A stretch of DNA of 64,000 nucleotides, taken from Methyloversatilis sp. (GTDB taxonomy: Bacteria > Pseudomonadota > Gammaproteobacteria > Burkholderiales > Rhodocyclaceae). The translations under genes were made by a program, and so were the position numbers. Positions 45,689 through 51,473 of the stretch are shown here, in pieces. The stretch is taken from the NCBI GenBank assembly GCA_017984755.1, contig JAGNYW010000002.1:98251-162250 (forward strand). Direction: 5' to 3'. The notes below the pieces were generated by a model. The model was not told the DNA's origin. It did not search any database and saw only the letters and a list, made by a program, of their open reading frames with translations. Positions within the stretch are counted from its first letter, which is position 1, and every line of letters begins with the position of its first letter.

Positions 45689-47644
<1,956 letters not shown>

Positions 47645-47811: not shown

Positions 47812-48534
47812 ATGATTCATTCTCACGCCGCCTCTGACGGAAACACGCCGCCCGAACGGTCTGAACAACCTGCCTACAGTGCGAGTGAGTCGGCCAGCAT
47901 CCTCGGGCTGCCCACGGCTACGATCAAAGCGTGGTGCTTTGGCCAGACATACAAGAGTTCTGCCGGGGAAGAGAAGCGCTTCCAGCCCGTCATCAAGCCG
48001 GTTGATCCGGCTGCCCGTCTGTTGTCTTTCGCCAACCTGTGCGAGCTGCATGTGCTTTCGGCCATCCGCCGTCACCATCGGGTATCCCTGCCCAAGGTGC
48101 GTGCAAGCCTGCAATACCTGCGGGAGCAGCTCGGTTCAGTACGCCCGTTGCTGGACACGCAGTTTCAGACCAACGGCATCGATCTGTTCGTCGAGCACGC
48201 CTCGAAACTGCTGAATGTATCCCGCAGCGGGCAGCAGGCCCTGCGCGGCGATTTCGAACGCGCGCTGGCGCGTATCGAGCGCAACGATGCCGGCAAGCCG
48301 ATACGCCTGTTCCCCTTTACCCGTCCAAATCAGGAAGACGGTTCGCGTGTTGTCGCGGTCGACCCCAGCCTGTCTTTTGGCCGGCCGATATTGCTGGAAG
48401 CCGGCGTAAAGACCCACGTAATCCAGAGCCGCTTCGCCGCAGGCGACTCGATTCACGAGATGGCCGTGGATTACCGGGTGGCAATCGGAGACATCGAAGA
48501 AGCACTGCGTTTTGAACAACGCCTCGTCGCCTGA
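47812..48534 (+). CDS. VapB45-like DUF433 antitoxin
   Basis: A 240-residue protein: N-terminal MerR-like helix-turn-helix (YSASESASILGLPTATIKAW), a helical middle and a C-terminal DUF433 domain (VVAVDPSLSFGRPILLEAGV to IGDIEEALRFE). The layout matches the long DUF433 antitoxins of the VapBC45 type (Rv2018-Rv2019 in M. tuberculosis). It overlaps the PIN-like gene by 23 bases. Predicted to bind the toxin and the operator upstream. Confidence 0.83.
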   Translation: MIHSHAASDGNTPPERSEQPAYSASESASILGLPTATIKAWCFGQTYKSSAGEEKRFQPVIKPVDPAARLLSFANLCELHVLSAIRRHHRVSLPKVRASLQYLREQLGSVRPLLDTQFQTNGIDLFVEHASKLLNVSRSGQQALRGDFERALARIERNDAGKPIRLFPFTRPNQEDGSRVVAVDPSLSFGRPILLEAGVKTHVIQSRFAAGDSIHEMAVDYRVAIGDIEEALRFEQRLVA

Positions 48535-48919
48535 CACCTTCACCCTGTTCGTGGATCGCGACGCGTGGAGCGCAAAACTCGACACCGCACTGCGAGCCGC
48601 CGGAATCCCGTTCATCGCACACCGGGACGTCTTCGCCCACAACACACCGGACGAAGAATGGCTTGCGGAAGCAGGGCGCCGCGGCTGGCTGGTTTTCACG
48701 CGCGACCAGAACATCCGCCGACGGCCTGACGAACTCAAAGCCCTGCGCGACGCCGGGGTCATCCTGTTCGCACTCACATCGGGCAACCTGTCCGCTCAGG
48801 AAACGGCTGAACTGGCCGTCGCAAGCTGGCTAAAAATCACCCGCCTCGCCGCGAAAACAACGCCACCCGCGATCTTCTCGATCACGCGGGGTGGGGAGAT
48901 TCGACGCATCGAACGCTGA
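48512..48919 (+). CDS. PIN-like toxin, VapC45 type
   Basis: A 135-residue protein of the PIN-like VapC45 class: FTLFVDRDAWSAKLDTALRA, DVFAHNTPDEEWLAEAGRRG and WLVFTRDQNIRRRPDELKAL carry the acidic residues expected for an RNA-cleaving site. It starts with TTG inside the antitoxin gene; a later GTG (48551) would cut off the first core strand, so TTG is preferred. Partner of the DUF433 protein. Confidence 0.83.
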   Translation: MNNASSPDTFTLFVDRDAWSAKLDTALRAAGIPFIAHRDVFAHNTPDEEWLAEAGRRGWLVFTRDQNIRRRPDELKALRDAGVILFALTSGNLSAQETAELAVASWLKITRLAAKTTPPAIFSITRGGEIRRIER

Positions 48920-49014: not shown

Positions 49015-49398
49015 TCACAACCACGTGTCTCCCCAGTTCTTAGAACAGACTTCATTCCACGTACGGACCTTCCGCACAGCCGTGACCAGATCGCTAGCCT
49101 TCCCCCACAACGGTAAGGACGCAACGTCTTCAGGTGTCGCTTCTCGAACGTCGCTGAATTCATGCCACACATGGTCAAGATCTGAACGACAGGAATGGCA
49201 TTCTTCCCACAGATTTTCAAACAACGTCGGAATACCGATCTGTTCCGCGATAAAATATCCGCCGCCCATAAAGCGTTCTCGAAGACATTCAACATCTGCG
49301 TCCGACAACGCACCCTGAAGCAATAATTCTCCCCATGCCTTGTAGTTCCCCGCATCGCGATACAAATACTCGAAGACGCAATAGCTATTCGCGGTCAT
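49015..49398 (-). CDS. Unknown 127-residue protein coupled to the methyltransferase-HNH gene
   Basis: A soluble 127-residue protein with an aromatic/acidic composition ([40 protein letters not shown]). No family recognised. Its ATG overlaps the stop of the upstream methyltransferase-HNH gene (ATGA), so it is made from the same mRNA. It and the HNH part have lower GC than the rest of the window. It could be an accessory, immunity-like or unrelated cargo protein; nothing in the sequence decides. Confidence 0.75.
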
Positions 49399-51473
49399 GA
49401 CTGAATCACCCGGTTATCGAGAAATATCTTTTCGCGGTGATGCCGAACGAAGTCGACTGACGGCATAAAGCGCTCAGGCATTTCGATACTATGCCCAGCG
49501 AGCGGCAAAAATATCTGCTGAACGAAGGCATCACCCTGCTTCGCAAGATCTTCTGATATCAGGATTCGGAAATCATTGGATAACGAAATCAAACCTTGAT
49601 CAAACGCCTTGTCGTGAAGCGCAGACAGGCACAGGCCGTTGCTTGGATTGAGTCGATTCGCCTTGTCCTTGCTCCACGGAACGATATGACTTGCCACGAG
49701 CAACCTCGGATCGGCCAAGCGCGACATGCAACAGCGACCTCGATAACTGCTCACAACTGCACGGCGAAAGAAATGCTGCTTGATTCGCTGCTGAGCCATG
49801 ACAACGCGGGTTTCTCCAGTGAAATCGTCGAGGATCACCGCATCGCCCGCATCGCAATCCGCAACAGTCTCTGCACTCTCAGATCCCAGCGCGGCGCGAA
49901 GATCCGCACATTCCAACGCCAAGCCTTCCCAATCTGAGTGAAACTCATCCCACACTTCTCGATCAAGCGCCGATGCGTTGCTCAACCCCTTCCGTCCCGT
50001 ACCGGTAATTGCTGGATCAAGGCTCGCAAGATTCACCAGCTTCATTGCCACGGCCCCCGCCGTTCGACCGATCAACTTCGCGAGTTCAATGATTTCCGGA
50101 TTTCTAGAATCCAGTTTTCCGAATGGCAATTGACAATACAAATGAAAGGCCAACTTGACTTGTGGTTTGGTCCAACGTCCGCTGTTCATGGCGTCCTCGG
50201 GTATTTGTACGCGCCGCGACGTTTCCACCGACGGCGTGACATTTAGATGCGGAGCCATGAGTTTAGCGGCGGCCGTGAGCATTGGCACAAGCGCCGCATT
50301 CGACAAGAGCAGATACGCCCGAGTATCTGAAACAGGAATCCTGAACGTATCCGGAAACCCCATCAGCCGGGCGCATTCGCGTGGTGTCAGCCGGCGGGGA
50401 TTCCGGTTTTCGCCCTGGTACACGAGTATTTCCGAGCCGTCCTTGTAATAGCGGGCGGACAGGGTGCGGGCCACGCTGTCCGGGTACACCAGCCCGAAAC
50501 CGAAGCCATTCCCCTTGGCACGATGCTTTTCGGCGTAACCCTGCAGGTAGGCCCAGAGCTTGGGCGTGAGCGTATATTTCCCTCGCACGCTGCGGGTCGC
50601 GTGATCAAAGAAGCGGTCGCCGTCGTGTTCGATGAACGGCTCGCTGCCGTCGGTGCGATGCAGGATGTCCTTCAAGGTGTGCGTGCCTTTCGGCGGCATC
50701 GGCAGCGCGTCCCAGTCGAAGGCCACCTGCAGGTCACGACGAAAGCCGACGATGAGGATGCGCTCACGATGCTGCGGCACGAAGCGGGCGCCATCGACCA
50801 CCTTGGGTGAAATGTCGTAACCGAGTTCAACCAGCGAGCGCTTGATCACGTCCCAGGTACGGCCCTTGTCGTGCGACATGAGGTTCTTGACGTTTTCGAG
50901 CAGGAAGGCGCGCGGCTGCTTCGCCTCGATGATGCGGCAGATGTCGAAGAACAGCGTGCCCTGCGTCTCGCAGGAAAAACCGTGGGCGCGGCCGAGTGCA
51001 TTCTTCTTCGATACGCCGGCGATCGAGAAAGGCTGGCAGGGGAAACCGGCCAGCAGCACATCATGGTCCGGGATGTCGGTCGCCTCGATCTGCGTGATGT
51101 CGCCATTCAGCGCGTGACCGTCGCGAAAGTTCTCGATGTAGGTCTTCTGGGCGTAACTGTCCCATTCGCTGGTAAACACACAGCGCCCGCCGATGCCTTC
51201 GAAGGCCGCCCGGATGCCGCCGATGCCTGCGAAAAGGTCAATGAAGCGGAATTCACCCTGACTGCTTGCCGGCTCGCCAAACGGCAGGAGTCGCTGCAGC
51301 ATGAAGGCGTATTGCGCCGGCACCGACTGCTCGGCCACCCAGCGTCGTACGGTGCGTACGTGCTTGCCGATACGCCGGCTGATTTCGACTTGTGAGTGTC
51401 GTTTAAGCGCTTCGACGAGATACGCATAAGCGTGCCGTTCGTCAGGTCCGGTGGTCAGCACGGTGGCACTCAT
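49395..51473 (-). CDS. Fused Dcm-type cytosine-C5 methyltransferase and HNH endonuclease
   Basis: A 692-residue single polypeptide. Residues ~20-45 hold a helix-turn-helix-like stretch ([19 protein letters not shown]). The methyltransferase (about 80-420) has motif [17 protein letters not shown], motif [10 protein letters not shown], motif VI ENVKNL, motif [16 protein letters not shown] and the [11 protein letters not shown] and [20 protein letters not shown] blocks very like Dcm/EcoRII enzymes (CCWGG). Motif X reads [11 protein letters not shown] where the usual Gly is Ser. From residue 429 ([10 protein letters not shown]) a typical HNH restriction-like protein begins ([20 protein letters not shown]), with its HNH core at [20 protein letters not shown]...[20 protein letters not shown] precedes the ATG at 51473; longer starts run through the palindrome. 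Confidence 0.9.
50178..50198 (-). promoter_or_regulatory. Possible internal translation start for a stand-alone HNH protein
   Basis: Within the fused gene, the ATG at 50189 (minus strand) that begins MNSGRW is preceded by CGAGGACGCC, a GAGG five bases upstream. A separate 264-residue HNH protein could thus be made besides the fusion. Seen: the site. Inferred: its use. Confidence 0.4.

Follow-up and report, generated by a model that had tools for sequence, protein, structure and literature searches.

How does a cytosine methyltransferase of the Dcm type come to share one polypeptide with an HNH nuclease, and what would such a protein do? The question is raised by a gene in the window analyzed here, a stretch of 64,000 nt from Methyloversatilis sp. 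(assembly GCA_017984755.1, contig JAGNYW010000002.1, positions 98,251–162,250). The features of the locus, in coordinates of the window, are:

49015–49398, minus strand: small downstream gene (127 aa), the start of which overlaps the stop of the fusion gene (ATGA)
49395–51473, minus strand: fusion gene (692 aa), ATG at 51473, stop codon at 49395–49397
49398–50189, minus strand: HNH half, residues 429–692 (264 residues; PADLOC HNH model PDLC04132 over 413–689, E 1.5e-116)
49581–49733, minus strand: HNH catalytic core, residues 581–631 (SHIVPW, NGLCL, HDKAFD; Pfam PF13391 HNH_2, E 6e-12)
50025–50168, minus strand: N-terminal three-helix bundle of the HNH half, putative DNA binding (structure model)
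50190–50237, minus strand: linker, residues 413–428 (comparison with relatives)
50262–51251, minus strand: Dcm-type C5 methyltransferase domain, residues 75–404 (Pfam PF00145 DNA_methylase, E 2.7e-79; PADLOC MTase_II)
50280–50324, minus strand: altered motif X, residues 384–398 (comparison with relatives; QFGN(S/A)V in the separate ones)

The open reading frame runs unbroken for 692 codons on the minus strand, from 51473 to 49395, and the Pfam domains confirm the original prediction of one uninterrupted frame with both sets of motifs; plus-strand frame 1 across the same coordinates is interrupted by stops. Both domains sit in one frame; a Type IIC enzyme would need both activities in that chain, and those of the two halves are predicted. 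Ahead of the ATG at 51473 lies a good Shine-Dalgarno sequence (duplex -9.2 kcal/mol), and this start matches that of the relatives; an alternative upstream GTG would give a product of 735 aa. The PADLOC models also divide the protein between the two domains (MTase_II 22–412, HNH 413–689). The predicted junction near 50190 holds, and the start MNSGRW of the HNH half was found at residue 429 (nt 50189), as predicted. Among PDB chains, the methyltransferase half is matched best by 3lx6 and 3me5, both Dcm-like (E ~1e-107), bearing out a Dcm-type enzyme with CCWGG-type recognition blocks; the nuclease assignment likewise agrees with PF13391 and the PADLOC HNH matches, the best solved sequence relative being VcaM4I (6yex, E 4.8e-7).

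Within the methyltransferase half of the window, motifs I, IV (PCQ), VI (ENV), VIII (QxRxR) and IX and the Dcm-type recognition domain are intact. The closest known methyltransferases are those of the Dcm / M.EcoRII / M.SsoII type. The half shares with such enzymes all motifs but X, the recognition domain and an N-terminal extension, but differs from them in lacking the Gly-Asn (GN) of motif X and in having an HNH nuclease appended.

In a first set of 101 genomes, including that of the window, the full fusion was present in three: its own, G006 (87% identity) and G055 (72% identity). The same fusion thus occurs full-length and in frame in 2 of the 100 other genomes. Scanning bacterial genomes with an HNH alignment gave 498 loci, the best 80 of which, with fetched genome stretches, yielded at least 21 distinct intact fusions, window included. 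Two more raise the total to at least 23; L287 is complete, and L289 is cut by a contig end but has the junction of L080. Genera with fusions include Gallionella, Thiobacillus, Zoogloea, Rugosibacter, Dechloromonas, Sulfuriferula and Parachitinimonas, and two fusions come from records of named isolates rather than metagenome bins, Dechloromonas denitrificans ATCC BAA-841 (L046) and Parachitinimonas caeni DQS-5 (L081). As at least 23 distinct fusions exist across genomes, two of them in named isolates, the fusion is no sequencing slip, and the frameshift error at the junction that the original prediction had considered is not the case; the many relatives with an in-frame fusion rule out both sequencing error and chance. 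Two genes with a stop between them, also considered at the outset, were found once, in L058 (the place of L163), where a stop codon lies in the linker between the halves, against more than 20 unbroken fusions.

In three pairs of fusions (L095/L099, L051/L057 and L048/L056) the methyltransferase halves are 90–92% identical and the HNH halves merely 67–80%, which suggests that HNH halves may have been swapped between fusions.

What sets the fused methyltransferases apart is motif X. Its Gly-Asn is lost in 21/21 fusions and kept in 33 of the 35 separate relatives; one of the remaining two is unreadable, and the other, L163, is the exception and lies one stop codon upstream of an HNH gene. All of a further 13 separate methyltransferases (L290–L302) have the GN, and the 2 further fusions lack it. 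In its place the fusions have S or A and then one of Q, D, E, N, H and G; the motif reads SNAA in the window, which like L021 retains the Asn without the Gly. Near-identical duplicates (L038, L118 and L119) were left out of these motif-column counts; L041, L078, L082, L087, L103 and L136 were also left out of the start-energy, upstream-remnant and downstream-fragment counts given below.

The change coincides with a sharp loss of similarity. The separate genes L153 and L160 share 81–93% nucleotide identity with the fused L057 and L067 and the split L163 over codons 250–360, and only 30–50% beyond codon 390. The identity between separate methyltransferases and fusions drops at approximately codon 385 (90-nt windows, except those of the L160 pair that run past the end of the L160 stretch and are filled with gaps). 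Between the two fusions L057 and L067, identity remains at 83–91% across codons 370–488 and declines only later, within the HNH half. A like drop at the junction, from 76–86%, is seen between the separate L023 and the fused L044. The fusions do not form a single clade in the methyltransferase tree: on starred branches, the separate L023 is sister to the fused L044, and the separate L153 and L160 are nested among Gallionella-type fusions. This is a quick tree with SH-aLRT supports only, from which the direction of exchange is not readable. Judged from the alignments, the junction is a recombination breakpoint, and, because of the breakpoint in the compared pairs and the non-monophyletic fusions, the 3' part of the methyltransferase gene was exchanged as a cassette.

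Most fetched HNH loci are non-fused. The genomes of 50 of the best 80 HNH loci were searched for the methyltransferase half; three held fusions, and in 46 of the 47 others, all with a non-fused HNH, a complete Dcm-type methyltransferase was absent (E 1e-15). The remaining genome, G476, a fragmented metagenome bin, combines an intact HNH with complete Dcm-type methyltransferases of canonical motif X, and counts against the explanation favored below. C5 methyltransferases of other kinds are present in G484, G494, G499 and G476. In five genomes of the 101-genome set (G002, G003, G011, G012 and G087) the HNH is the sole match to either half at E 0.001. A screen of 399 genomes of the order covered 22 that have a non-fused HNH, and a complete Dcm-type methyltransferase showed up in none of these (G062 has a fragment); with approximately one expected and only two candidates scored per genome, this is no significant depletion.

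The HNH stays intact without its partner. The strict HNH core pattern is present in 85 of 94 HNH open frames, duplicates included, and stops within the HNH occur in 2 of the 94. Non-fused HNH pairs have dN/dS values of 0.016–0.107 (20 finite of 25 pairs listed, some with saturated dS). Mapped onto the HNH tree, the fused label needs 18 switches, no fewer than 8 of them on starred branches; it is weakly clustered, 59 of 500 shuffles being as low, which also counts against the favored explanation. Labels were assigned by hand, and L054, L064 and L074, labeled solitary, were later found with methyltransferase remnants. The tree includes L041, omits L034 and L061, and carries L102 and L108, the two with stops in the HNH, with those stops as gaps; the alignment used for the structure model does without both. 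All 22 of the 22 fusions examined have a start codon at the HNH start, with a mean duplex energy there of -2.88 (n = 22) versus -3.65 for 163 other in-frame ATGs, so that an internal ribosome site is not enriched there.

Its survival without the methyltransferase marks the HNH half as a predicted autonomous nuclease that does not need it. This renders doubtful the original reading of the fusion as a self-contained restriction-modification protein: the HNH persists intact where the methyltransferase is gone or wrecked, the motif X GN is lost in all 23 fusions read, and a conventional CCWGG restriction enzyme would be expected to kill cells that lack the methyltransferase. In the HNH family the nuclease does not depend on a fused methyltransferase for its function or safety, as intact HNH genes occur without one in many genomes; the window protein itself may be a type IIC enzyme, because its methyltransferase half is well conserved.

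The structure model of the HNH half (mean pLDDT 81.9, 66 sequences) consists of an N-terminal three-helix bundle (helices at 8–20, 31–40 and 44–55 of the half) and a C-terminal HNH. A PDB fold search matched only VcaM4I (6yex) and TagI (6ghs) at probability 1.00, over the HNH part. In the accessible text of its report, PcaRCII of Pectobacterium carotovorum is a solitary, 5mC-dependent HNH endonuclease that resembles VcaM4I and TagI, has a three-helix N-terminus, restricts plasmids and phages whose CCNGG sites carry methylation, and is in conflict with a Dcm-like methyltransferase that silences its promoter (PMC8989522). The three-helix N-terminus, C-terminal HNH and resemblance to VcaM4I and TagI are common to PcaRCII and the HNH half; no methyltransferase lies beside PcaRCII, as in many HNH relatives here, and its conflict with a Dcm-like enzyme has a parallel in the position of the HNH in or beside broken Dcm-type loci. 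PcaRCII differs in being non-fused and silenced by promoter methylation (PMC8989522), and the similarity to hTRF1 named for it there was not seen in our model of the HNH half. From architecture and fold matches we infer that the HNH half may be kin to PcaRCII.

Part of the HNH loci hold remnants of restriction-modification genes. The separate methyltransferase genes of L023, L024 and L025 stand ahead of vsr and a restriction gene of the MvaI/BcnI or EcoRII type. Downstream of the HNH, fragments of MvaI/EcoRII-type genes with the 5' part gone were found in 15 of 85 loci; out of 416–480 residues, the matches begin at residue 259 or further on. Their open frames measure 55–328 aa (13 of the 15 at most 221 aa), and the two longer ones are perhaps more than fragments. 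There is no such fragment downstream of the window fusion, which counts against the favored explanation. Upstream of non-fused HNH genes, a profile of the fused methyltransferase detected remnants in 14 of 63 searched loci, compared with 0/63 for the reverse complement, 0/63 for a codon shuffle and 1/59 for downstream DNA, where the one match, in L036, is to a methyltransferase gene that is separate and distant; for L061 there was no upstream sequence to search. Weak in-register matches in the same-genus genomes L029 (E 0.019) and L030 (E 0.39) are not significant alone.

In Neisseria gonorrhoeae (NZ_CP119142.1, L147:2977–4744) a vsr-like frame and then a shortened C5 methyltransferase frame precede an intact, distant HNH homolog of 42% identity, much as in these loci; the vsr label is a reading of the letters, and PLSDB lists the 2.17-Mb record among plasmids.

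Relatives of the 127-aa protein downstream of the fusion follow 20 of 86 distinct HNH loci, L041 being retained in the counts of small downstream proteins; the protein has no Pfam or PHROG match and no PDB fold match below E 0.18. A second family, of approximately 120-aa proteins (e.g., L040:6187–6555), follows 28 of the 86 loci, and the one member tested against each of Pfam and PHROG has no match. Beyond the 127-aa gene, on the same side of the fusion, lies thiC (45689–47644, plus strand), which is also present in the fetched flank at 16 other distinct loci; these hold an HNH, a fusion or, in L025, an EcoRII-type gene, and L052 and L053 show merely short thiC similarity. In G024 (L025) a methyltransferase-vsr-EcoRII system adjoins thiC as the fusion does in the window, and the thiC neighborhood is a possible integration hotspot. 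Between thiC and the fusion (47812–48919, plus strand) an HTH_66/DUF433 protein and an overlapping PIN-like protein form a toxin-antitoxin-like pair, which also adjoins thiC in L048.

The explanation that we favor, with about an even chance of being correct, is that the fusion arose when an autonomous, probably 5-methylcytosine-dependent nuclease recombined into a former CCWGG restriction-modification locus; the HNH looks like a self-sufficient defense nuclease inserted into what was left of an earlier restriction system, not like one half of a functioning system. A cassette of the altered motif X segment, the linker and the HNH gene would have taken over the 3'-terminal part of a gene for a Dcm-type methyltransferase, as the breakpoint in the compared pairs indicates, and some lineages, though the window shows no sign of it, would also have lost the 5' part of an MvaI-/EcoRII-type restriction gene, leaving the fragments described above. 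The HNH would most likely cut foreign DNA with modified cytosine, and the model for this is the architecturally equivalent PcaRCII, which acts at methylated CCWGG/CCNGG (PMC8989522, accessible text). The methyltransferase half would be a captured partner with its cofactor motif rewritten at the junction, probably inactive or weakened, and could as such coexist with a methylation-dependent nuclease; this is the weakest step. In part of the lineages it has then decayed, with the HNH kept. Methylation conflict would explain the place of the cassette in Dcm-type loci.

On a further reading, which we advance tentatively, the fusion would be the trace left by an epigenetic conflict. A nuclease lethal to cells with CCWGG methylation could enter a methylating host only by recombining into the cofactor motif of the methyltransferase, with the cognate restriction gene also lost, and a type II locus would thereby become a type IV defense. 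With its cofactor pocket rewritten, the methyltransferase half would serve as a reader of CCWGG or use another cofactor, and so stay under selection.

The catalytic Cys of the methyltransferase half is kept in 20 of 21 fusions; the exception, L099, has Trp in an otherwise open frame of 697 codons. At 103 invariant positions the mean number of deviations is 0.19 in fusions versus 0.88 in separate enzymes (0–2 in the seven nearest). Fused pairs give dN/dS values of 0.045–0.147 for this half (11 pairs) and a median of 0.143 over 113 pairs, versus 0.08 for separate ones, of which only 3 pairs were comparable. Between the window and L021 (G006), which have the fusion in common, dS is 0.74 and dN/dS 0.133, with no deviation at the invariant positions, which argues that this half is doing something. 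The sequences thus point to strong purifying selection without relaxation, and the half may be active; this conservation is the hardest fact against an inert methyltransferase. The motif X Asn of M.MpeI is N374. The variant N374K of that enzyme uses carboxy-AdoMet (PMC12783734). Replacing the motif X Asn of M.HhaI (together with Q82A) lowers methylation only modestly, and Dnmt1 N1580A retains part of its activity (PMC10666283). By analogy, as far as the accessible text of both papers goes, the methyltransferase half may be active, altered, or a reader. Depletion of CCWGG, an indirect measure of its methylation, did not set the fused genomes apart, which gives the favored explanation no support: observed/expected CCWGG was 0.643, 0.684 and 0.757 in three fused genomes, 0.685 and 0.805 in two with a solitary HNH, and 0.726 in one with a canonical system, and there was no clear excess of CTWGG (0.926–1.036).

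This evidence also speaks for a type IIC-like enzyme, in which the methyltransferase, its motif X being non-canonical, would mark CCWGG, and the recognition domain of the methyltransferase would aim the HNH at unmodified CCWGG for cutting; the HNH would have replaced the MvaI/EcoRII enzyme and be harmless when unaimed. All catalytic and recognition motifs but X are intact and under purifying selection, enzymes with a replaced motif X Asn keep methylation activity (PMC10666283), and the HNH occupies the place that the cognate restriction gene has in relatives, fragments of which persist in 15/85 loci. We nevertheless consider it unlikely: the lone HNH remains under purifying selection where a lineage lacks the methyltransferase, the HNH half is modeled with a putative DNA-binding bundle of its own, and the frame of L099 is open although its catalytic Cys has been replaced by Trp.

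Quite unlikely, too, is that both halves are active on unrelated targets, the methyltransferase marking CCWGG, the HNH restricting another modification (e.g., hydroxymethylcytosine), and the fusion serving co-expression. The conservation of both halves, the tolerance of the HNH with and without the methyltransferase, and the VcaM4I- and TagI-type fold matches would fit, but the rewritten motif X in each fusion read is left unexplained.

We regard as very improbable a selfish, homing-like HNH gene that spreads by recombining at the motif X codons of genes for Dcm-type methyltransferases. It would account for the rewriting of motif X in each fusion read, the sharp breakpoint there in the compared pairs and the non-monophyletic host genes, but most fetched HNH loci are non-fused, and queries with the methyltransferase tail (E 0.01) found no displaced 3' tail downstream of the HNH, unlike a clean homing insertion. 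Least probable is that the HNH took over the job of Vsr, the repair of deaminated 5-methylcytosine mismatches: it does occupy the vsr position of L023, L024 and L025, but it is kept in the five genomes where it is the sole match to either half, and vsr-like sequences still follow some HNH loci.

The protein differs from known single-chain enzymes. Natural methyltransferase-HNH fusions of this kind were not found in the open-licence PMC papers searched. The methyltransferase of Eco29kI belongs to the C5 class. The nearest fusion in print, within that literature and the accessible text of the report, is the engineered Eco29kI protein, which likewise joins the nuclease and methyltransferase of a two-gene system in one chain but is laboratory-made, has the nuclease first, and had both activities tested (PMC3039593). 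Type IIC/IIG enzymes also combine methyltransferase and nuclease in one chain; in the part of the source available, the majority have an N-terminal PD-(D/E)XK domain and a gamma-class methyltransferase, and BtgZI has an alpha-class methyltransferase first (PMC4081073). Here, a C5 methyltransferase precedes an HNH that also survives alone.

The fusions represent natural C5 methyltransferases in which motif X is replaced and the rest conserved, altered in the very pocket that, as the accessible text describes, chemists change to modify cofactor use (PMC10666283). They also provide a natural set of restriction-modification loci overwritten by a nuclease that lives alone as well, through which it would become testable whether methylating systems are in conflict with nucleases that depend on methylation, as proposed.
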